64,000 nt of DNA from Mesorhizobium hawassense. GTDB lineage: Bacteria > Pseudomonadota > Alphaproteobacteria > Rhizobiales > Rhizobiaceae. Below the pieces are notes generated by a model. The model was not told the DNA's origin. It did not search any database and saw only the letters and a program-made list of their open reading frames with translations. The stretch lies in NCBI RefSeq assembly GCF_003289945.1, contig NZ_QMBP01000006.1, positions 186,001 to 250,000 of the forward strand, written 5' to 3'. This document shows positions 30,810-57,486 of this stretch, one piece after another (within the stretch, counting starts at the first letter, position 1; each line of letters opens with the position of its first letter). A program made the position numbers and the translations under genes.

Positions 30810-30954
30810 GCGAGCTCTCCTCAATGCTCAGCCCCCGATCCGCTACTTAGCAGTTGGGTGGGACAAGGCAAGGCATCGTTCTGGCATAAGGTGTTGATGA
30901 CGCTTGGGAAGCGCCCGCATCTCCCGATGCCGGTGCCAAATACGGACACGATCA

Positions 30955-32085
30955 TCAGCCTTCGCCGAACGACTCGAAGAAGTCCTTCATGCGGGCGAAA
31001 AAGCCGCTCGACTGGGGCGAGTTGTCCTTCGAGGACAGCTGCTCGAACTCTTCCAGCAGCTCGCGCTGGCGACGCGAAAGGTTCTGCGGCGTCTCGACCG
31101 CGGTCTGGATGTAGAGGTCCCCGACATTGGGCTGGCGCAGCACCGGCATGCCCTTGCCCTTCAGCCGGAACTGGCGGCCGTTCTGCGTTCCTTCGGTGAC
31201 CTTCACCTTGGTCTGGGTGCCGTCGAGCGTGGTGACCTCGAACGAGCCGCCAAGGGCGGCCGTCGTCATCGAGATCGGCACCTTGCAATAGAGATCGGCG
31301 CCGTCGCGCTGGAAGAATTCATGCGGCTTCACCGCCAGGAAGATGTAGAGGTCGCCGGAAGGCCCGCCGCGCAGGCCGGCCTCGCCCTCATTGGCCAGCC
31401 GGATGCGGGTACCGTCCTCGATGCCGGCCGGAATGTTGACCGACAGCGAGCGCTCCTCGGTGACGCGGCCCTGGCCGGCGCATTTCGGGCAAGGGTCCTT
31501 GATCGTCTGGCCACGGCCCTGGCATTGCGGGCAGGTGCGCTCGATGGAGAAGAAGCCTTGCGTGGCGCGCACTTTGCCGTGGCCATGGCACATCGAGCAG
31601 GTCACCGGCTGCGTGCCGGGCTTGGCGCCGCTGCCGGAACATTCCGAGCAGGAGATCGAGGCCGGCACGCGGATCTGCGCCGTCTTGCCGGAGAAGGCTT
31701 CTTCCAGCGTGATTTCCATGTTGTATCGCAGATCGGCGCCGCGCTCGCGGCCGCCGGAGGAACGGCGCTGCCGGCCGCCCATCATGTCGCCGAAGATATC
31801 CTCGAAGATGTCGGCGAAGCCGCCGGCGCCAAAGCCGTGCGCGGCGCCGTTCATGCCGCCCTGCTCGAAGGCAGCGTGGCCGAAACGGTCATAGGCGGCG
31901 CGCTTCTGCGGGTCCTTCAGCGTCTCGTAGGCTTCGTTGATTTCCTTGAACTTGTGCTCGCAGGCATGGTCGCCGGGATTGCGGTCGGGATGGAACTGCA
32001 TGGCGAGCTTACGGAAAGCGCTCTTGAGTTCCTTTTCGTCGGCGCCTTTTTGCACGCCCAGCGTTTCGTAGAAATCAGCTTTCAT
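30955..32085 (-). CDS. dnaJ: chaperone DnaJ
   Basis: 376 residues, full length. J domain 1-70 with FHPDRNPGD (HPD), Gly-rich linker with [20 protein letters not shown], then four zinc repeats ([32 protein letters not shown]), two substrate-binding beta domains and a C-terminal dimerisation helix. Delivers unfolded proteins to DnaK and stimulates its ATPase. It is 222 bases downstream of dnaK with a terminator between them, so it may have its own promoter. Confidence 0.97.
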
Positions 32086-32253
32086 TTTTTCCCGCTGTCC
32101 GGATGCTCAATGTCTTCAAGCATTGTTGGCGACGTTTGCCGGCACGTTCTTGGATTTAGGAGCGATGTTTCCCGGATGCTAGTACTAAGCGGGGCTCGCT
32201 CCGGGTTTTTCCGTCACTTTTTCGAACGGGCCCGTACTTTTTCAACGAAGGTT

Positions 32254-32286
32254 GCAAAAAAGCCCGGCTTTGCGCCGGGCTTTTGC
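32254..32286 (-). terminator. rho-independent terminator after dnaK
   Basis: On the minus strand AAAGCCCGGC pairs with GCCGGGCTTT around a short loop, followed by TTTTTGC. It lies 22 bases beyond the dnaK stop and separates dnaK from dnaJ. Confidence 0.8.
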
Positions 32287-32307
32287 ACCTATCCGCCGTC
32301 AGCCGGC

Positions 32308-34224
<1,917 letters not shown>

Positions 34225-34343
34225 TGTTCTAGTCTCTCCTCTAAGCAGGCTCTCAGGACCCTTCAAAAGGCGTTCCGACGAAAGCCCCTGTTCACAAGAA
34301 ATCCCGTCCCGGTTCCCGCTTTTAGGGGCCGGACGGCTTGGCG

Positions 34344-34375
34344 CGTATATAAGAACAGCCGACACGGGGCGCAAG
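34344..34375 (-). promoter_or_regulatory. probable RpoH-type promoter of dnaK
   Basis: Minus strand CTTGCG (34375-34370) and, after a 16-base spacer, CTTATATACG (34353-34344). The -10 part fits the alphaproteobacterial heat-shock pattern CYTATnTnnG and the -35 keeps CTTG. It predicts a roughly 110-base leader for dnaK. Confidence 0.55.
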
Positions 34376-34512
34376 CATTCTGCGCAAGCTGTCTGCGATC
34401 CGTGTACACAGTGGGGAAAAGGCCTAAATCGCGCATATCGCAGCGGATTTGCCGTCACGAGCGGCCGGGATCGCCGAATCCGGCGCCGGCAAAAACGTCG
34501 CAGCCATCGGGA

Positions 34513-35307
34513 TCAGTCCCGAAAAGCCTGCCGGCAAAGCGTCTGGAGGCTTGGAAACACGTTCCTTCCGCCGGTGATCACCCGGGTCCCTTTGCCGATC
34601 ACGGTCATGGGGTCCGCCTTGAGCACCGTGCCGCCGGCCTCCTCGACCAGCAGCATGCCGGCGAGACAGTCCCAGGCGTTCATGTGCTCTTCGACATAAC
34701 CGAGCAGCCGGCCGGAAGCCGCATAGGCAAGCATCAGCGCCCCTGAGGCATTGCGGTAGAAGACGCCGCCCTCCGCCAATATCAGGGTGAGGAGCACGAC
34801 GACATTCTTGGTCGAGCCGCGGTTGGAGAGCCCGGTCCCGACCGAGCCCTCGGAAAGCGATGCCGCATCGCTGGCCTTGATCGGCTTGCCGTTGAGAAAA
34901 GCGCCGCCGCCAAGGCGGCCGTGGAACGTCTCGTCGGTCGAGGGTTCATGGATGACGCCGACAACCGTCTCGCCATCCCGCGCGCAGGCGATCACCACGC
35001 ACCAGGCGGGAATGCCGCGCACGAAATTGGCGGTGCCGTCGATCGGGTCGATCACCCAGACATGACCCGTCGTTCCGGTGACAGCTGCGTGCTCCTCGCC
35101 GACGATGCCGTCGTTCGGATAGGTCGCGGCGACCGCCGCGCGAATGAACAGCTCGACCTCGCGATCGCCTTCGGAGACCAGGTCCTGATGACCCTTGCTC
35201 TCGACGGTCAGATTGTCGAGGTCGCGAAAATATTTGAGCCCCAGCTCGCCGGCGCGCCGCGCCAGGTCGATGGCAAAATGCATGCGATCGTCGAGATCAT
35301 GGGTCAC
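34513..35307 (-). CDS. inositol monophosphatase-family phosphatase
   Basis: 264 residues. Metal-binding motif 1 GIVGEEH, motif 2 VWVIDPIDGTANFVRGIPAW and motif 3 HMNAWDCLAGMLLVEEAGGT are all intact, so it is a Mg-dependent, Li-sensitive type phosphatase. Family substrates include inositol monophosphates, fructose 1,6-bisphosphate, histidinol phosphate and 3'(2'),5'-bisphosphate nucleosides; which applies cannot be told. It is monocistronic, just upstream of the dnaK promoter region on the same strand. Confidence 0.9.
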   Translation of the reverse strand: MTHDLDDRMHFAIDLARRAGELGLKYFRDLDNLTVESKGHQDLVSEGDREVELFIRAAVAATYPNDGIVGEEHAAVTGTTGHVWVIDPIDGTANFVRGIPAWCVVIACARDGETVVGVIHEPSTDETFHGRLGGGAFLNGKPIKASDAASLSEGSVGTGLSNRGSTKNVVVLLTLILAEGGVFYRNASGALMLAYAASGRLLGYVEEHMNAWDCLAGMLLVEEAGGTVLKADPMTVIGKGTRVITGGRNVFPSLQTLCRQAFRD

Positions 35308-50080: not shown

Positions 50081-50778
50081 CGACGGTCCTCGATCAGCGT
50101 GATCTTCTGCCAGATCTTGCGCGACAGGTTAGAGCTCAGATTCTCGATGTCGTTGACCCCGTCGATGACGACGTCGTCATTGACCGACTGCGCGAACAGC
50201 GCCGCGATCTTGCCGGCGATCGACAGCATCTCCGAGCAATAGTCGAGGTAGCGCGCAAGATCGGCTGCGTTGGTGATTCGTTGCGGCGAATGCGCGGTCG
50301 GCTTGAAGTCGGCAGACAGCGCCGCCGGGTCCTTGGTCAACTGGTGCATGTCGATGACATGGATCAGCGAGCGCAGCCCGTGCAATTGCCGGAACACCTT
50401 CTTGCGCTTGATTCGCTCCTCGGTGCGGACCAGCGCCAGCAACCCGAGCACGGCCAGGATGACGGTGTTGATCGTCGCTTCGATGCCTTGCATCGACTGC
50501 ACGGCGTCGTCGGCGCCGGAGATGCGGTCGAGCGGCAGGATCGTGCCAACGAACAGGAACACCGCCACGCCGGCGGCGAAGGCGGCGATGATGACGCCGC
50601 GCAACCACCAGATCGGTGACTCCAGCGCCTTGGCGGCCTTCGCGAGGTCCCGCGACAGCGACACCAGTTCAGCGGCGACGCCGCGCAGGCCGGCTTCCGG
50701 AAAACGCTCGCCGATCCGCACTTCCAGCCTCTCGGCCGTCTCGATGATCAATTGCGGATCGAGCGTGCGGTAGCGCAT
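50077..50778 (-). CDS. membrane protein of unknown function
   Basis: 233 residues. Helical N-terminus (LIIETAERLEVRIGERFPEA), two spans (WLRGVIIAAFAAGVAVFLFV and STINTVILAVLGLLALV-like TINTVILAVLGLLALVRTEE), then a basic cytoplasmic C-terminal half with coiled character. It overlaps the convergent reductase gene by 4 bases. Probably in one transcript with dapD and the DUF805 gene. No family recognised. Confidence 0.7.
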   Translation of the reverse strand: MRYRTLDPQLIIETAERLEVRIGERFPEAGLRGVAAELVSLSRDLAKAAKALESPIWWLRGVIIAAFAAGVAVFLFVGTILPLDRISGADDAVQSMQGIEATINTVILAVLGLLALVRTEERIKRKKVFRQLHGLRSLIHVIDMHQLTKDPAALSADFKPTAHSPQRITNAADLARYLDYCSEMLSIAGKIAALFAQSVNDDVVIDGVNDIENLSSNLSRKIWQKITLIEDRR

Positions 50779-50785
50779 GGCGGTT

Positions 50786-51157
50786 TCAGGAATCGCCCGG
50801 CGCGTTGGTGCGCCTGCCGTAACGGTTCGGTCCCGGATCGCTGCGGAAACAGGCGAGGACGACGAGCAGGATAGGGCCGATGATGAGCGAGATCAGCGCA
50901 AAATAGGTCGGCTTGCCGAAATCATGAAAGCGCTTCGCCGTCACCGCGAAGGTCGCCCAGGCCGAGATCAGCAGCACGCCCCAGCATATCATCGCCCAGT
51001 TCTGGCTGGCGGTGGTGTTCAGCTCCACCCGCGCGAACTGGTAGAACGGAAAGAACTGGACAAGCACCAGCAAAACCCCGGCCAGCGCGTAGGCGACCGG
51101 GCTCAGCCGCCCCGAAAGGCTGAAGAACAGCCAGAGGAATTGCGATCTTTCAGACAA
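50786..51157 (-). CDS. DUF805 membrane protein
   Basis: 123 residues. FSLSGRLSPVAYALAGVLLV start, three to four spans, and the DUF805 hallmark AKRFHDFGKPTYFALISLII, with a C-terminal RSDPGPNRYG. Function unknown; the family is widespread and often linked to envelope genes. It lies 24 bases after dapD and 7 bases before the 233-residue gene. Confidence 0.88.
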   Translation of the reverse strand: MSERSQFLWLFFSLSGRLSPVAYALAGVLLVLVQFFPFYQFARVELNTTASQNWAMICWGVLLISAWATFAVTAKRFHDFGKPTYFALISLIIGPILLVVLACFRSDPGPNRYGRRTNAPGDS

Positions 51158-51181: not shown

Positions 51182-52036
51182 TCAATCGCGCAGCAATTCG
51201 TTGATCGACGTCTTGGACCGGGTCTTGGCGTCGACGCGCTTGACGATGACGGCGCAGTAGAGGCTCGGGCCCGGTTCGCCATTGGGCAGCGGCTTGCCTG
51301 GCAGCGACCCGGCGACGACCACCGAGTTCGGCGGCACCTCGCCGTAAAAAACCTCGCCGGTGGCGCGGTCGACGATCTTGGTCGACTGGCCGATGAACAC
51401 GCCCATGCCGAGCACCGAGCCCTCGCGCACGACGCAGCCTTCGACCACTTCGGAGCGCGCGCCGATGAAGCAATTGTCCTCGATGATGGTCGGGCCGGCC
51501 TGCATCGGCTCCAGCACGCCGCCGATGCCGACGCCGCCGGAGAGATGCACGTTCTTGCCGATCTGGGCGCAGGAGCCGACCGAGGCCCAGGTGTCGACCA
51601 TGGTGCCCGAATCGACATAGGCGCCGACATTGACGAAGGACGGCATCAGCACGGCGCCCGGCGCGACATAGGCGGAACGCCGCACGATGGAGGACGGAAC
51701 GGCGCGGAAGCCGGCCTTCTCGAAGTCGACCGCGCTCCAGCCGTCGAACTTCGACGGCACCTTGTCCCACCATACCGCGTGCCCTGGACCGCCCTTGATG
51801 ATCTCCATGGGGTTCAGCCGGAAGGAGAGCAGAACCGCCTTCTTCAGCCACTGGTTGACGTGCCACTTGCCGTCTTCCTGCCGTTCGGCGACGCGAGCGA
51901 CGCCGCGATCGAGCAGCTCGAGCGCCGACTGGATGGCCTCGCGCGTCTCGCCGCGCGTCGCGGTCGAAATCGTGTCGCGCTCCTCGAAGGCCTTTTCGAT
52001 GGTCTTTTCGAGGCTCGCCAGATCGGACTTCGACAT
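51182..52036 (-). CDS. dapD: tetrahydrodipicolinate N-succinyltransferase
   Basis: 284 residues. Trimeric left-handed beta-helix enzyme using succinyl-CoA in the lysine/diaminopimelate pathway. Hexapeptide region: [60 protein letters not shown] and [21 protein letters not shown]-terminal helices and the end [11 protein letters not shown] are typical. Its upstream gap to 52172 should hold divergent promoters. Confidence 0.97.
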
Positions 52037-52171: not shown

Positions 52172-53020
52172 GTGGATTCGATGACTCCCATGGAAAAGGC
52201 AGGCTGGACGCCGCTGCCGCATTCGGACGAGGACCTGGAACGCTCGAAGAGCGTGCCGGATACCCCGCAGACACGCGCCGAAACCTATCGGCTGGCCTGG
52301 AACGACCCCGACTTCATGACGCGGCGCGAATTGCGCGCCGTGCGACTGCAGCTCGAGCTCTTGAAACCGGAAATGATCCTGGCCGAACGCGGCATCCGCT
52401 CGACCGTGATCCTGTTCGGCGGTGCCCGCCTGCCGGAACCCGGCGGAGAGGCCTGGGCGGCCAAGAACGAGACGCAGAGGAAGAACCTCGAGGCAAACAG
52501 CAAATATTACGAGGAAGCGCGCAAATTCGCCCGCCTGTGCTCGCAGCAGTCGGCCACCTCCTATTACCGCGAGTACGTCGTCGCCACCGGCGGCGGGCCC
52601 GGCGTCATGGAGGCAGGCAACCGCGGCGCCGACGATGTCGGCGCGCCGTCGATCGGCTTGAACATCGTGCTGCCGCACGAGCAGGCGCCCAACGCCTATG
52701 TCACGCCGGAGCTCTGTTTCAACTTCCACTATTTCGCCATCCGCAAGATGCATTTCGTCATGCGCGCCAAGGCGGTCGCGGTGTTTCCGGGCGGCTTCGG
52801 CACGATGGACGAGTTCTTCGAGGCCCTGACGCTGATCCAGACCGGCCGCATGGAGCGCGTGCCGGTGATCCTGTTCGGCAAGGCGTTCTGGCAAAGGGCG
52901 ATCGATCTCGATTTCCTCGCCGAGCAAGGCACGATCTCGCCCGGCGATCAGGACATCATCGATTTCGTCGACACCGCCGAGGAAGCCTGGGACATCATCC
53001 GCCGCTTCTACACGCTCTGA
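52172..53020 (+). CDS. LOG-family nucleotide phosphoribohydrolase
   Basis: 282 residues from GTG 52172 (ATG 52181 possible). STVILFGGARLPEPGGEAWA, VVATGGGPGVMEAGNRGADD, and the LOG signature AVAVFPGGFGTMDEFFEALT (PGGxGTxxE) are intact. LOG proteins cleave nucleoside monophosphates, e.g. cytokinin riboside 5'-monophosphate or AMP; many were misnamed lysine decarboxylases. It has an extra N-terminal 90 residues compared with the short LOG forms, as in the long subgroup. Divergent from dapD. Confidence 0.88.
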   Translation: MDSMTPMEKAGWTPLPHSDEDLERSKSVPDTPQTRAETYRLAWNDPDFMTRRELRAVRLQLELLKPEMILAERGIRSTVILFGGARLPEPGGEAWAAKNETQRKNLEANSKYYEEARKFARLCSQQSATSYYREYVVATGGGPGVMEAGNRGADDVGAPSIGLNIVLPHEQAPNAYVTPELCFNFHYFAIRKMHFVMRAKAVAVFPGGFGTMDEFFEALTLIQTGRMERVPVILFGKAFWQRAIDLDFLAEQGTISPGDQDIIDFVDTAEEAWDIIRRFYTL

Positions 53021-53052
53021 GAGCGCGGCGAAACGAACCCTGCCCGATCTGC

Positions 53053-53697
53053 CTACACCGGCAGTTCGGCCAGCCAGCCATTCGAGTGCGCGAAGCGCAC
53101 GATGGCCGCCCGCGAGCGGAGCTCGAGCTTCTCGGTCGCCCTGGTGCGATATGTTTCGATCGTCTTTATGCTGAGGTTGAGCCGGGACGAGATTTCCTTG
53201 TTGCTGTAGCCGAGCGCCACCAGCTGGATGACCGACCGCTCCCTCTCGCTGAGATTGCCGGGATCGCCCTGCGGGGCGCTGCGCGGGCTGAGCAGCCGCG
53301 CCGCGAGCGCCGGATCGACATAGTTGTCGCCGGCCAGCACGCATCGTATGGCCTGCAGCAGATCGGTCGCGGTCGACCGCTTGACCACGAAACCGCGTCC
53401 GCCGGCCGCAAGCACCTGACGCAGGCAGCCCGGATCCTCATGCGCCGTCAGCGCTATGCAGCTGACCTCGGGAAAGCGTTCGCCGAGCCGTTCGATCAGC
53501 GTGACCCCGTTGACGCCCGGGAGCGATATGTCGACCACGGCGACATCGGGCAGCGCCTTGCCGATCCCTTCGAGGGCGTCGTCGGCATTCCCGGCCAGCC
53601 CGACGATCGTCAGATCGTCCTGGCTGTTGATCATCGCGCCGACCCCGGACAAGATGATCGGGTGGTCATCGACCACGAATATTCGCCTGCAGCACAC
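53053..53697 (-). CDS. NarL/LuxR-type response regulator
   Basis: 214 residues from GTG 53697, chosen because GGAGG lies 9 bases before it; ATG 53712 would add five residues. Receiver: IFVVDDHPIILSG, phospho-Asp in VAVVDISLPGVNGVTL, IALTAHED, and Lys in GFVVKRSTA. LuxR helix-turn-helix: NLSERERSVIQLVALGYSNK, EISSRLNLSIKTIETYRTRA. Partner of the kinase at 53977, 280 bases upstream on the same strand. A plausible target is the repeat-protein promoter at 54.7-54.9 kb. Confidence 0.92.
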   Translation of the reverse strand: MCCRRIFVVDDHPIILSGVGAMINSQDDLTIVGLAGNADDALEGIGKALPDVAVVDISLPGVNGVTLIERLGERFPEVSCIALTAHEDPGCLRQVLAAGGRGFVVKRSTATDLLQAIRCVLAGDNYVDPALAARLLSPRSAPQGDPGNLSERERSVIQLVALGYSNKEISSRLNLSIKTIETYRTRATEKLELRSRAAIVRFAHSNGWLAELPV

Positions 53698-53976
53698 CTT
53701 TAGAACCTCCATCAGTCGATGAAAGGGCTCCTCACCTTGAAGAGGCCCTCTTGTTCTTGATGGTCTAGGCAACTGCCCCGCTTCATGCGGGACGCCCGTC
53801 TGTCTCGGCAAGCCGCGAGGCGGCCGCTGCGGGTAAAGCCATCCCCCGCCTAACCCATGATGCCCGGACTATAAGCTGGGACTAAAGTCCGGGATGTGCG
53901 GCGCTTCACGTAATCCTTACGTTTACGGAAGAAGCAATTTCCGGACTAATCACATTAATCGTCCGAAAATTGTCCA

Positions 53977-54639
53977 TCAGCCGGCGAGCGGCGCATCGGC
54001 ATAGAGGGTGGTCCCCTTGCCGTTGGCGGTTTCGACCGACAATTTGCCGCCCACCAGCGCAAGGCGCTCTCTCATTCCGGCAAGCCCCAGATGGCCTGGG
54101 CCGGGCTCGGCGCCGCCATCGAAACCGCGGCCATCATCCTCGATCGTCAGGCGCATCCGATCGTCCTGGATATGCGCCGTCACGCTTACGCGGCTCGGCG
54201 CGGCATGCTTGCCGATATTGGTGAGTGCCTCCTGCGCGATCCGGTAAAGCGTGAGCGCGACTTCGGTGGGCAGCGGGCTTGAAAGGGCTTCGAGGTCCAT
54301 CTCGCATTGAATGCCGAGCTGGCCGCAAAGCACGCTGGCCAGGTCCTCGACCGAGGCTCGCAGGCCGAGACGATCGAGATCCGCGGGTCTGAGGCTCCAG
54401 GCGGCATCGTGCACCCGGGCGCTGAGCCGGTCGACAAGCATCGCTGCGCGCGCGAGTCGCGGGTCCATCTCATGCGAGTCGGCGCGAACGATGTGCAATT
54501 CGAGCGCGATGCTGGCCAGCATCTGGCCCAGATCGTCATGCAGCTCGCGCGACAGGCGCAGGCGCTGTTCTTCCTGCACGGCAATCAAACGCCGCGCCAG
54601 GCGACGGCGGAGAGCCTTGTCGTCTTTGCCCGTAGTCAT
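53977..54639 (-). CDS. soluble HisKA_3 histidine kinase without a sensor domain
   Basis: 220 residues from ATG 54639 (54651 possible). The phospho-acceptor helix LIAVQEEQRLRLSRELHDDL (His in ELHDDLGQ) begins almost at the N-terminus. HATPase follows: YRIAQEALTNIGKHAAPSR (N box), LTIEDDGRGFDGG (G1) and HLGLAGMRERLALVGG. No membrane span or recognisable input domain, so the signal must come from another protein or cytoplasmic cue. It pairs with the NarL-type regulator and is divergent from the Asn-Gly repeat genes. Confidence 0.9.
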   Translation of the reverse strand: MTTGKDDKALRRRLARRLIAVQEEQRLRLSRELHDDLGQMLASIALELHIVRADSHEMDPRLARAAMLVDRLSARVHDAAWSLRPADLDRLGLRASVEDLASVLCGQLGIQCEMDLEALSSPLPTEVALTLYRIAQEALTNIGKHAAPSRVSVTAHIQDDRMRLTIEDDGRGFDGGAEPGPGHLGLAGMRERLALVGGKLSVETANGKGTTLYADAPLAG

Positions 54640-54757
54640 ACCCACCCACATCAACCCTTCTCTTCCCATTGCCGTCGCGGGGCTCGCAAGTCACCTGCGG
54701 GTCGGCGAGAAAAGGCATGAATGTCCGCGCAATATACACCCGCCGGACGCGATTGTG

Positions 54758-54799
54758 CCTGTCAGATTTTTCCCGATCTCTTCGAATTTTCCTGACAGG
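54758..54799. promoter_or_regulatory. inverted repeat in the kinase/repeat-gene intergenic region
   Basis: CCTGTCAG (54758-54765) and CTGACAGG (54792-54799) are perfect inverted 8-mers, 34 bases centre to centre (about three helical turns), with an AT-rich interval. They lie between the divergent kinase gene and the first repeat gene. A candidate regulator site; unproven. Confidence 0.45.
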
Positions 54800-54934
54800 G
54801 CTATCAGCAGAAAAACCGGCAGAGCCTGCCGATCAGCCCGAATGTCTCAGCGTCGTTTCTCGGCGCATCCTTTTTGCGTCGTCCCGGTCATCTGGAACTG
54901 GCCGGGAAGCTCAACGCAAACCAAGGAGAACGTC

Positions 54935-55351
54935 ATGAGAAAGATCATCCTGGCCGCGGCCGTCCTGTCGGCTCTGACTGGAACGGCATCCGCGGTGTCC
55001 ATCGGTAGCGGCAACGGGAACGGCAACGGCAACGTCGGCGTCGGCAACGGCAACGGCAACGGCAATGCCAATACCGGCGCCTTCAACGGCAACTTCAACG
55101 GCAACGGCAATTTCGGCATCGGCAACGGCAACGGGAACGGCAATGCCAACATGGGCGCCTTCAACGGCAACTACAACGGAAACCTCAATGCCGGCATCGC
55201 CAACGGCAACGGCAACGGCAATGGCAACTTCGGCCTCGCCAACGGCAACCTGAACGGCAACGCCAACTTCGGCCTCGGGAACGGCAATGCCAACGGCAAC
55301 GGCAACTGGGGCGCCGGCAACGGCAACGGAAACGGCAACGCCAACCAGTAA
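54935..55351 (+). CDS. exported Asn-Gly repeat protein A (13-residue repeats)
   Basis: 138 residues after AAGGAGAACGTC. Signal peptide MRKIILAAAVLSALTGTASA. From about residue 33 it is eight consecutive 13-residue units of form N-x-G-x-x-NGN-x-NGN-x, e.g. NTGAFNGNFNGNG, NMGAFNGNYNGNL and NFGLGNGNANGNG. Hydrophobic residues recur at fixed positions 2 and 4. Composition is over half Asn and Gly with almost no charge. The regularity suggests a stacked beta-solenoid or amyloid-prone fold with Asn ladders, in the periplasm or outside. The DNA repeats in a 39-base period. No known family assigned with confidence; pentapeptide_2/PPE-MPTR repeats are the nearest in look. Confidence 0.8.
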   Translation: MRKIILAAAVLSALTGTASAVSIGSGNGNGNGNVGVGNGNGNGNANTGAFNGNFNGNGNFGIGNGNGNGNANMGAFNGNYNGNLNAGIANGNGNGNGNFGLANGNLNGNANFGLGNGNANGNGNWGAGNGNGNGNANQ

Positions 55352-55385
55352 CGCCGTCCAAACCGCTAGCGTCGCCAGTCTTTGG

Positions 55386-55563
55386 CTTGGCCAAGCTTCG
55401 ACTTGGCCAAGCTCCGAGTTGGAAAGACGCTGACGCCTCTGGGACCGCCGAGCCACGCGCCCGTCCCCCGCGCAAGGCTATCGCGACATGTCGCCGACGG
55501 TCCCAGTCCTTTTCAAGCAGAGAGGGTCCCTTTCCGAGCAGAAGTCCCTTCTCGAGCAAATGT
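55386..55563. repeat. tandem direct repeats upstream of repeat gene B
   Basis: CTTGGCCAAGCTTCGA (55386) is followed immediately by CTTGGCCAAGCTCCGA (55402). At 55508-55563 three units of about 18-20 bases follow one another (CCTTTTCAAGCAGAGAGG, CCCTTTCCGAGCAGAAGT, CCCTTCTCGAGCAAATGT). The region has no gene and precedes the ribosome site of gene B; it could bind a regulator. Confidence 0.5.
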
Positions 55564-55581
55564 CATGGAAGGAGTTCGCAC

Positions 55582-56034
55582 ATGAAACGGCGTGTCATAG
55601 TGGCACTGAGCCTGGCGCTGCTGAGCGCAACCGCGGCGAGGGCCGACACCACGACGGGCAGCCAGGCCTTCGGCATGTCCCGCGTCCAACAAACCGCCGG
55701 CCAGTACGGCCAGTATATCGGTTCGGATGTCAGGAGCATGAACCCGCTCGGCAGCTTGGGCGGCAATGTCGGTTACAAGAACAGCGGCAGCGGCAATGTC
55801 GGCGCCTTCAACAGCGGAACCGGCAATGTCGGGGCCTTCAACGGCAACGACAACACGTCCTCGACCAGCGGCAACGGCAATATCGGCTCGTTCAACGGCA
55901 ACGGCAACACCGGCGAATATGACGGCAACGGCAACATCGGTGCCGGCAACGGCAATTTCAACGGCGGCTCGTACAACGGCAACGGCAATGTCGGCGCCTT
56001 CAACGGCAACTTCAACGGCCGGGGGAACCGATGA
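55582..56034 (+). CDS. exported Asn-Gly repeat protein B (9-10-residue repeats)
   Basis: 150 residues after AAGGAG. Signal peptide MKRRVIVALSLALLSATAAR (cleavage near ARA-D), a 45-residue non-repetitive segment (TTTGSQAFGMSRVQQTAGQY, then IGSDVRSMNPLGSLGG), then repeats: GNVGYKNSGS, GNVGAFNSGT, GNVGAFNGND, GNIGSFNGN, GNTGEYDGN, GNIGAGNGNFNGGSYNGN, GNVGAFNGNFNGRGNR. The G-N-x-G-x-F-N core matches alternating units of gene A, so the two are paralogous in design though the period differs. Stop overlaps gene C (ATGA). Confidence 0.8.
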   Translation: MKRRVIVALSLALLSATAARADTTTGSQAFGMSRVQQTAGQYGQYIGSDVRSMNPLGSLGGNVGYKNSGSGNVGAFNSGTGNVGAFNGNDNTSSTSGNGNIGSFNGNGNTGEYDGNGNIGAGNGNFNGGSYNGNGNVGAFNGNFNGRGNR

Positions 56035-56492
56035 TCGGCCTGAAACCACCCATGTCCGCTCCGCCTTGCAAGAGCAAGGTGGCGGCGAGGCTGCTTGATG
56101 GAAACGGCTTTGCGCTCGGCACTTTGCTTGCCGCGATGCTGGTCGCCGACGCCTCGACCCTGGTCAGGTTCGCCGACCTTCCGATCGGTGTCGCCAATGG
56201 CCTTGGCAACACCGGCAATTTCAACGGCAACGGGAATTCCGGCAATTTCAACGGCAATGGCAATAGTGGCAATTTCAACGGCAACGGCAATGCCGGGAGC
56301 TTCAGCGGCAACTTCAATGGCGGCAACTTCAACGGCAACGCCAATTGCGGCAGCGGCTTCGGCAACGGCCATTCGTCCGACGGCAACGGCAACGGCAAGG
56401 GAGCCGCCGGCGCCCCGGATTGGTGCCGGTTCCTGAAGGGCCTGAATGGCCAGCTGGGACTGCCGCCCGGCACGATTCCGGATTTCGATTAG
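56031..56492 (+). CDS. Asn-Gly repeat protein C with Cys-containing C-terminal segment
   Basis: 153 residues, coupled to gene B by ATGA (ATG 56052 possible). An N-terminal basic stretch and hydrophobic segment (FALGTLLAAMLVADAS) could be an atypical signal or anchor. Then about six 9-residue units: NTGNFNGNG, NSGNFNGNG (twice), NAGSFSGNF, NGGNFNGNA, NCGSGFGNG. The last 30 residues (APDWCRFLKGLNGQLGLPPG, then TIPDFD) are non-repetitive with one Cys, and another Cys lies in the final repeat, so a disulfide is possible. It may cap or anchor an assembly of A and B (inference). Confidence 0.75.
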   Translation: MIGLKPPMSAPPCKSKVAARLLDGNGFALGTLLAAMLVADASTLVRFADLPIGVANGLGNTGNFNGNGNSGNFNGNGNSGNFNGNGNAGSFSGNFNGGNFNGNANCGSGFGNGHSSDGNGNGKGAAGAPDWCRFLKGLNGQLGLPPGTIPDFD

Positions 56493-56552
56493 AGCAATTC
56501 CAGGAAAGTGCTCGACGGTTGTCCGGAATTGCGTGAAACAAGGAGTTGGAGC
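56491..56552. repeat. intergenic repeat family A, copy 4 (short)
   Basis: AGAGCAATTCCAGGAAAGTG and TCCGGAATTGCGTGAAACAA with a shortened loop; the second hairpin is absent. Its first base is in the stop codon region of repeat gene C. Confidence 0.75.
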
Positions 56553-56628
56553 AGGCAGCGATTCGGCGCCTTTTGCGCCGACTGAACTAGTTGCGTGCGG
56601 ACGGCGCGCCGAGCAATCCGGCGTTTAT

Positions 56629-57336
56629 TCAGGCCACGACTTCGACGATTGCCGTCAGGAAGCCGGCGAGATCGTCGGTGACGAAATCGACGTCGTCCTC
56701 GTTTGCCGGGTCGCGTTCCCAAATCTCCGAAAAGGTCGGTTCGAAATTGCGCGGCACCACCAGCACCGTCGTCATGCCGAGCTTCTTCGGCACGGCCAGA
56801 TTGCGCGCCAGATCCTCGAACATGACGGCGTTGTGCCCGGTCACGGAGTGCAATTCGGCAAAGCGCTCATAGGTCTGGCGCTCCGGCTTGGGATTGAGCC
56901 CCGCCGCGACGATGTCGAAGATGGCGTCGAAATGCTCCAATATGCCGAGCTGGCGCGCGGTGCGTTCGGCATGCCTGCGGTCGCCATTGGTGAAGATGAA
57001 TTTGCGTCCGGGAAGCTGGCGGATCGCCGCACCCAGCACCGGATCCGGCACCAGCCTCGAATAGTCGATGTCGTGCACCTTCTCGAGAAAATCGTCGGGA
57101 TCGATGCCGTGCCGCTTCATCAGCCCGTTCAGCGTCGTGCCGTATTCCAGGTACAGCTCCTTCTGCAGCTTGCGCGCCTCGTCGCGCGAAAGCGTCAGCA
57201 GCTCGCCGACATAGGCGGTCATCTTGACGTCGATCTGCGCAAACAGATTCGAGTGATGCGGATAGAGCGTGTTGTCGAGGTCGAACACCCAGTCCGTGAC
57301 ATGGGCAAAGCGGGCGGGATCGGGCGTCGTTGTCAT
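56629..57336 (-). CDS. HAD-family pyrimidine 5'-nucleotidase-like phosphatase
   Basis: 235 residues from ATG 57336. HAD motifs: WVFDLDNTLYPHHSNLFAQI (motif I, DxDxT), FIFTNGDRRHAERTARQLGI (motif II), KPERQTYERFAEL (Lys, motif III) and NAVMFEDLARNL (motif IV). This layout (DLDNTLYP) is the SDT1/pyrimidine 5'-nucleotidase subgroup, dephosphorylating UMP or CMP-like substrates. In several rhizobia the orthologue neighbours dapD; here 4.6 kb separates them, holding the LOG gene, the kinase pair and the repeat genes. Confidence 0.88.
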   Translation of the reverse strand: MTTTPDPARFAHVTDWVFDLDNTLYPHHSNLFAQIDVKMTAYVGELLTLSRDEARKLQKELYLEYGTTLNGLMKRHGIDPDDFLEKVHDIDYSRLVPDPVLGAAIRQLPGRKFIFTNGDRRHAERTARQLGILEHFDAIFDIVAAGLNPKPERQTYERFAELHSVTGHNAVMFEDLARNLAVPKKLGMTTVLVVPRNFEPTFSEIWERDPANEDDVDFVTDDLAGFLTAIVEVVA

Positions 57337-57486
57337 GGCCTTCTTATGGCATGCCGACGTCGGAGTTATCCACAACTTATACGGGTCACGAAGTGTGAAA
57401 ATGGCGTCTCCCTTCAAATTTTAAAAGTCTGGGAAAGGTCACCTTTAACGCTTGCTGGCACACAAGCTCTCCGTTGGGAGCAAGTG

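Follow-up and report, generated by a model that had tools for sequence, protein, structure and literature searches.

Why should a rhizobium encode three small asparagine- and glycine-rich repeat proteins head to head with a two-component pair? The question is raised by a locus of Mesorhizobium hawassense in a stretch of 64,000 nucleotides (contig NZ_QMBP01000006.1, positions 186,001 to 250,000; hereafter the window, to which coordinates refer), where three repeat genes, here named ngnA, ngnB, and ngnC, run rightwards (54935–56492, + strand) and the genes of a histidine kinase and a response regulator run leftwards. The gene set, its linkage and joint absence, the selection acting on it, the conserved upstream elements, and the architecture of its relatives were all observed directly, and the ngn unit is real, conserved, by its layout regulated, and of an undescribed kind. 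A preliminary description of the locus knew of no rhizobial system of this composition, and a search of open papers yielded none either, a weak negative since subscription papers were mostly outside it. The likeliest role, which we consider probable, is that of a regulated fibre or matrix whose subunits are exported by Sec, a system that parallels curli without belonging to them.

A linked five-gene unit in Mesorhizobium

The first repeat gene, ngnA (54935–55351, +), encodes 138 amino acids (aa) with a Sec signal peptide followed by 13-residue repeats (N-x-G-x-x-N-G-N-x-N-G-N-x). The second, ngnB (55582–56034, +), encodes 150 aa with a signal peptide, about 40 aa of non-repeat sequence, and then GNxGAFN-type repeats. 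The third, ngnC (56031–56492, +), whose start overlaps the ngnB stop by ATGA, encodes 153 aa, with GNFNGNGN repeats after a hydrophobic N-terminal segment; two Cys and the tail LPPGTIPDFD are conserved. Opposite them lie the kinase gene (53977–54651, −) and the regulator gene (53053–53697, −), and all five genes were recovered where the preliminary description had placed them. On the left the unit is flanked by dapD (51182–52036, −) and a LOG-type gene (52172–53020, +), whose orthologues adjoin in relatives, and on the right by a HAD-type hydrolase gene (56629–57342, −), which is the immediate neighbour of LOG at sites lacking the system.

Searches of 61 Mesorhizobium genomes recovered ngnB in 18 and the kinase (E ≤ 1e-30) in 18, and the two sets of genomes are identical. 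The unit adjoins LOG in 17 of the 18, being split over two contigs in one genome (G007) and lying farther from HAD in another (G058), and a divergent copy in genome G036 sits at another site, with kinase and regulator again opposite the repeat genes. The HAD gene was present in 60 of the 61 genomes. Twelve HAD sites without the unit were fetched, one from G036 and the others from 11 of the 43 genomes in which the unit is absent. At these sites LOG and HAD are 24–877 bp apart and matches to the kinase and the repeat genes are absent; HAD, earlier named as the usual rhizobial neighbour of dapD, was indeed seen beside dapD/LOG there in 12 of 12. In genome G046, the last ~46 residues of the regulator remain between LOG and HAD with 82.6% identity, which points to the unit having been lost as a whole. 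In Mesorhizobium, the five genes appear to be retained or lost together, and their linkage is strong.

Two-component pair and conserved upstream elements

The kinase carries HisKA_3 (PF07730) and HATPase_c (PF02518), and the regulator a receiver (PF00072, 5.9e-23) and a GerE domain (PF00196, 1.6e-17), which is the composition of a NarL/FixJ-type two-component system. Neither a transmembrane (TM)-like stretch nor a further domain was detected in the kinase, and none of the usual sensor or input domains was found in it by Pfam and TM-like stretch scans, in agreement with the earlier description of a sensor-less kinase and a NarL-type regulator divergent to the repeat genes. The kinase residues H44, N151, D178, G180, G195, and G198 are invariant in the alignment of relatives, and the regulator is 87–99.5% identical among relatives at the dapD site. 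A longer kinase start at 54669 is possible, but 54651 is most likely, since several relatives begin at the second Met; for the regulator, the GTG at 53697 behind GGAGG is the most likely start, rather than the TTG at 53811. The kinase–regulator interval also contains an inverted repeat, CCCGGACT...AGTCCGGG (53863–53893), inside a 13-bp tandem-like array.

The divergent region between the kinase gene and ngnA (54652–54934) is strongly conserved in an alignment of 16 Mesorhizobium-type loci, with TGTC(A/G)G(A/T)TTTTTCC ... TTT(T/C)CC(T/C)GAC conserved at 54760–54797. The motif CCYGAC(A) and its reverse were chosen after viewing the upstream regions of 19 loci, and CCYGACA was then counted in the 300 bp upstream of ngnA. 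In the kinase-linked set (four loci picked from the dapD site and nine others), 18 sites were counted in 13 of 13 loci, at least one in each, against 1.13 expected and a maximum of 6 among 500 Markov-resampled sets, and in 12 loci without a seen kinase none was counted against 0.59 expected; these figures describe rather than test the motif, because some of these data had served to find it. The counts cover the loci other than L092, L093, L095, L096, L129, L130, L137, and the remaining dapD-site loci. The motif also occurs in the 22 loci L098–L119, which are not independent. Of ten further Methylobacterium stretches, the nine that were readable contained no CCYGACA, five of the nine having been counted already and four being new. 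An independent set of positive loci was sought in Aureimonas, the genus of L131, and none was obtained, since the matches in 3 of 21 genomes all fell in genomes already represented.

A second conserved element (55439–55513, +) lies between ngnA and ngnB and consists of a long GC stem followed by CCTTTT. This GC-rich element of ~75 nt has a mean column identity of 90% across 23 Mesorhizobium-type sequences, the version in L012 lacking the inner hairpin only, and the surrounding stretch 55346–55600 folds better than shuffles (z −4.2), with sequence changes too few for covariation. It is possibly an attenuator or an mRNA stabiliser. A terminator scan left the element uncalled, matches to sigma-70-type promoter and textbook terminator consensus in 53000–56700 were not above those in shuffles, and no known RNA family matched the window at gathering score.

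Repeat proteins and their relatives in other lineages

The three proteins had been described as exported, with mature parts almost entirely composed of repeats. Judged by eye, the N-termini of NgnA and NgnB are ordinary Sec signal peptides, but that of NgnC is long with a hydrophobic stretch and not a textbook signal peptide. The description as almost entirely repeats fits NgnA, and fits less well NgnB, with its first ~60 aa, and NgnC, with its N-terminus and non-repeat tail of ~45 aa. The ngnA array comprises 8.8 copies of a 39-bp unit, and mature NgnA consists of eight 13-residue units, in which, across 15 equal-length Mesorhizobium sequences, the Asn and Gly of the pattern are invariant except for one Asn that is Ser in some. 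No known repeat domain of Pfam or NCBIfam scored above its cut-off in the three proteins; Pentapeptide_2 (PF01469) reached 24.5 bits against a cut-off of 26.4 on NgnB, and NgnA and NgnC were unmatched by it at E ≤ 1. A phage or plasmid origin was rejected, as ngnB had zero matches in the phage and plasmid collections searched.

DNA repeats are present in ngnA, ngnB, and ngnC, the repeat number differs between genera, and genome G042 has a kinase–regulator pair without repeat genes, as might be expected if the arrays arose by slippage in the DNA and mattered little as protein, and the kinase pair had other targets. This explanation is already largely refuted and appears the least probable of those weighed. 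The ratio of nonsynonymous to synonymous substitution rates (dN/dS, Nei-Gojobori) is 0.146 for ngnA (15 equal-length sequences, three of the 18 being omitted as distant or of different length) and 0.284 for ngnB (11 sequences of 150 aa), so that these arrays are not drifting slippage tracts and ngnA is under purifying selection. NgnA is 138 aa long in 16 of 18 Mesorhizobium sequences (137 and 136 in one each), and the repeat genes are present and absent jointly with the kinase.

A scan of named genomes with the ngnB alignment, overlapping the 61 genomes, gave 50 loci: 25 of the Mesorhizobium dapD–HAD kind, some on contigs showing a part only, 23 elsewhere, and 2 actinobacterial Pentapeptide_2 proteins not counted as members. 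The 23 come from Aureimonas, Methylobacterium, Bradyrhizobium, Kaistia, Pararhizobium, an uncultured Rhizobium, Beijerinckiaceae, other metagenome-assembled genomes (MAGs) of Hyphomicrobiales, a 'Proteobacteria' MAG (L123), and a Mesorhizobium MAG with the set away from dapD (L124). In the other genera, the sets occupy sites without dapD/LOG/HAD, and most of the 23 loci have two to four repeat genes with recognisable A, B, and C types. Order-wide surveys found ngnA in 8 of 297 genomes and the ngnB profile in 7 of 397, and a phylum-wide survey with the ngnA alignment gave 4 of 398, none of them outside that order; these samples overlap, at most nine or six candidates per genome were scored, and sensitivity to short repeats is limited, so that absence elsewhere is unproved. 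A survey of Methylobacterium gave 9 of 99 genomes.

A related kinase was seen in 9 of the 23 loci (L121, L124, L126, L127, L129, L131–L134; weak in L129 at E 1e-12 and a fragment in L134), and in the remaining 14 its place is taken by a LuxR-type regulator, a MacAB-like piece, or both. The pairing of repeat genes with the kinase pair thus held within Mesorhizobium (the same 18 of 61 genomes; both missing at the 11 inspected sites) but not across the order. Since the preliminary description had named repeat genes without the kinase pair in most relatives as part of the case against its proposal, an obligatory link is weakened across the order, not within Mesorhizobium. A GerE/LuxR-type regulator is nearby in 20 of the 23 loci by clustering (Pfam run on 10 of the 20; L135 and L143 taken through their overlapping copies L095 and L094), the other three being L134 (at a contig edge with its kinase fragment), L140, and L146, and in seven regulators (L091, L094, L095, L128, L130, L137, L141) GerE was found without a receiver. 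Apart from the L134 fragment, the related kinases are longer than that of Mesorhizobium; the eight examined have 1–3 TM-like stretches, and a PAS match was obtained in five of six tested (L121, L124, L127, L131, L132; one just under cut-off). Because the related kinases are longer, with membrane-like stretches and mostly PAS, the short Mesorhizobium kinase looks like a derived form that lost its input part.

MacAB-like genes adjoin the repeat genes in every locus of three groups, Methylobacterium (11 loci), Bradyrhizobium (2), and Beijerinckiaceae (1), 14 in all. They comprise a MacA-like adaptor, a MacB-type ATPase, and a MacB_PCD/FtsX permease; the set is partial in L142 (cut by the contig end), L138 (adaptor only, at a contig edge), and L140 (permease piece only, at a contig edge). 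The label 'MacAB-like' is used because the proteins tested (L139, L141) scored under the MacA/MacB equivalog cut-offs, the L139 adaptor passing the broader RND_mfp cut-off. In E. coli, MacAB-TolC exports from the periplasm a toxin that has been delivered there by Sec (PMC5985334), a route to which repeat proteins with Sec signals would by analogy be suited. The MacAB-like loci differ from MacAB-TolC in having the ATPase and permease as separate genes, and MacA/MacB homologues were absent at E ≤ 1e-5 from the 64-kb window, the part of the genome searched.

Small exported proteins beside exporters of a type that can carry peptides as well as a protein toxin (PMC5985334) might also be microcin-like, acting as antimicrobials or signals under two-component control and leaving through a pump of their own. 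We regard this as improbable: an immunity gene, a peptidase-type ABC exporter, and a peptide-modifying enzyme went unrecognised among the neighbours scanned (part of the total), at least two repeat proteins are kept together, and there are YadA-linked copies. In the latter, genes joining a YadA head to NxGxxN-type repeats lie beside the sets of Aureimonas Leaf324 (L133, 4083–5387) and Pararhizobium mangrovi (L130, 7887–9404); the repeats of the former match Pentapeptide_2 and those of the latter are similar, which links this kind of repeat to the cell surface. An adaptor, FtsX, and ABC set also lies nearby in L133, with permease and ATPase nearer the Lol type.

Two further kinds of neighbour were observed. 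One is an exported family with a short NGN stretch followed by a conserved, Cys-containing domain (PGLAAAGIE(A/S)CLGS-like) at L091 9917–10507, L120 10322–10993, and L146 479–1003, for which nothing was found above cut-off in Pfam (L091, L146) or in NCBIfam (L120). The other is a glycosyltransferase gene (Glyco_tranf_2_4; L139 4996–6150) upstream of a Methylobacterium repeat set.

Proposed assembly and resemblance to known systems

Several known systems resemble the ngn set in part, and neither curli, MPTR, nor pearlin is a fitting family for it. Curlins are about 150 aa long, and the curli regulator CsgD is LuxR-type. Curli and the ngn set share exported repeat subunits, more than one paralogue, and a regulator encoded opposite, but the ngn repeat is the 13-residue asparagine unit and a two-component pair replaces CsgD. 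A curli survey describes the subunit genes as divergent from the operon that encodes their activator of transcription, and reports that in many Alphaproteobacteria curlin subunits are the sole identifiable Csg homologues (PMC3521004), which leaves open how they are exported and assembled. Curli membership was rejected, since both curlin repeats and CsgG were absent: Curlin_rpt (PF07012) gave no match at E ≤ 1 in NgnA, NgnB, or NgnC, the best PF07012 matches in the same genome (E 2.7 and 3.0) were located elsewhere and under cut-off, and CsgG (PF03783) was found in 0 of the 18 ngn genomes and in 1 of 61 overall (G034, without ngn genes). With the mycobacterial PE/PPE-MPTR proteins (PF01469), the Ngn proteins have short NxGxx repeats in common, NgnB falling just under the family cut-off, and a PE plus Pentapeptide_2 protein of a mycobacterial MAG (L145) was among the matches of the ngnB alignment. 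The Ngn proteins, in contrast, are short and Gram-negative and have no PE or PPE N-terminal domain at E ≤ 1, and the short-repeat likeness may be convergent. Likeness to trimeric autotransporter adhesins is confined to the neighbours in L133 and L130, where YadA head repeats are combined with NxGxxN-type repeats, and no YadA head or anchor was matched at E ≤ 1 in the window proteins.

Several results weigh against the reading of the unit as an exported fibre or matrix system. The genomes are related, so that the 18/18 co-occurrence may reflect few events. The ngnB-like gene of G036 seems frameshifted (L062 4526–5059), its second half being another frame of the NG array, and the additional pair of G042, which is related and sensor-bearing and lies on an 11.7-kb contig without repeat genes, occurs besides the unit (L064, contig 495, 7781–9114, with a long open frame for the kinase). 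The CCYGACA motif was picked from partly the same sequences in which it was counted, and L123, where a kinase was not seen, has a related regulator (E 2e-46) and lacks the motif. The Mesorhizobium locus contains no outer-membrane exit route, the genome having been searched for CsgG only. Structure prediction also speaks against it: AlphaFold2 (AF2) failed on NgnB (15 sequences; predicted local distance difference test, pLDDT, 43), and on NgnA (27 sequences) it placed short strands in every 13-residue unit at low confidence (pLDDT 64.6; predicted template modelling score 0.46). As AF2 is reported to favour or invent solenoids for repeats (PMC11795689), the NgnA solenoid model is a hint only. 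No convincing structural neighbour of the model was found: a fold search gave none at E ≤ 0.001, and NosD (7osf_A), the best of the Foldseek matches in VIA (Z 6.7, root-mean-square deviation 3.5, 137 aligned), was not accepted as a relative, that Z being at a level the tool calls common. By sequence, NgnA and NgnB had no match at E ≤ 1 among solved structures.

The low AF2 confidence on NgnA and NgnB, together with their very high Asn/Gly content, would also suit an unordered coat, soluble or surface-bound, that binds water, ions, mineral, or polysaccharide, for example as protection from drying, and forms no ordered polymer. A comparable NG repeat domain occurs in pearlin/N14/N16, likewise a small secreted matrix protein, of nacre; in pearl-oyster pearlin/N16 it is hypothesised to act on crystal growth (PMC7677314). 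Those are animal proteins with a short NG stretch and acidic regions, so that the likeness is in composition only. The strict 13-residue register, the near-invariant Asn and Gly, and the constant length of NgnA suggest that geometry matters, and where repeats of this kind are fused to a YadA-type head, they probably belong to a folded part at the surface; this coat is the main rival but rather unlikely. Nothing was found pointing to ice-binding, another role that had been suggested.

For the regulated fibre or matrix, we infer the following course of signalling, DNA binding, export, assembly, and function. The kinase would phosphorylate the regulator, which would bind the CCYGACA/TGTCRGG elements between the kinase gene and ngnA and turn on ngnABC. 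NgnA and NgnB would leave via Sec, and NgnC may stay in or be processed at the membrane, where its two cysteines and fixed tail could make it an anchor or starter. NgnA, the most regular repeat protein, would be the main subunit, possibly favoured by the structured element after its gene. Outside the cell, stacking of the repeats may build a fibre or matrix in the manner of curlins, and in Methylobacterium, Bradyrhizobium, and the Beijerinckiaceae genome, the adjoining MacAB-like pump may carry the Sec-exported subunits across the outer membrane. A more specific proposal, plausible but somewhat doubtful, is that of an undescribed class of secreted, self-assembling repeat fibres in Hyphomicrobiales, unrelated to curli, with 13-residue Asn-ladder units, three dedicated subunits, an operator of its own (CCYGACA), two-component control, and lineage-specific variants exported by a MacAB-like pump or anchored at the surface in YadA fashion.

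If the fibre or matrix reading is true, plant-associated alphaproteobacteria own a regulated repeat system independent of curli. Because the subunits lie with their regulator and the likely operator, joined in some lineages by a candidate exporter, export and assembly could be addressed by simple deletions. The 13-residue Asn/Gly unit could also serve as a minimal repeat for material design and as a benchmark for structure predictors prone to calling solenoids too often.

Elsewhere in the window, an open frame at 30904–34746 (+) matches Pfam NAD-GH (PF10712), an entry that is likely an antisense artefact, and a large minus-strand frame overlaps it. A tRNA-Leu (cag) gene lies at 50751–50845.

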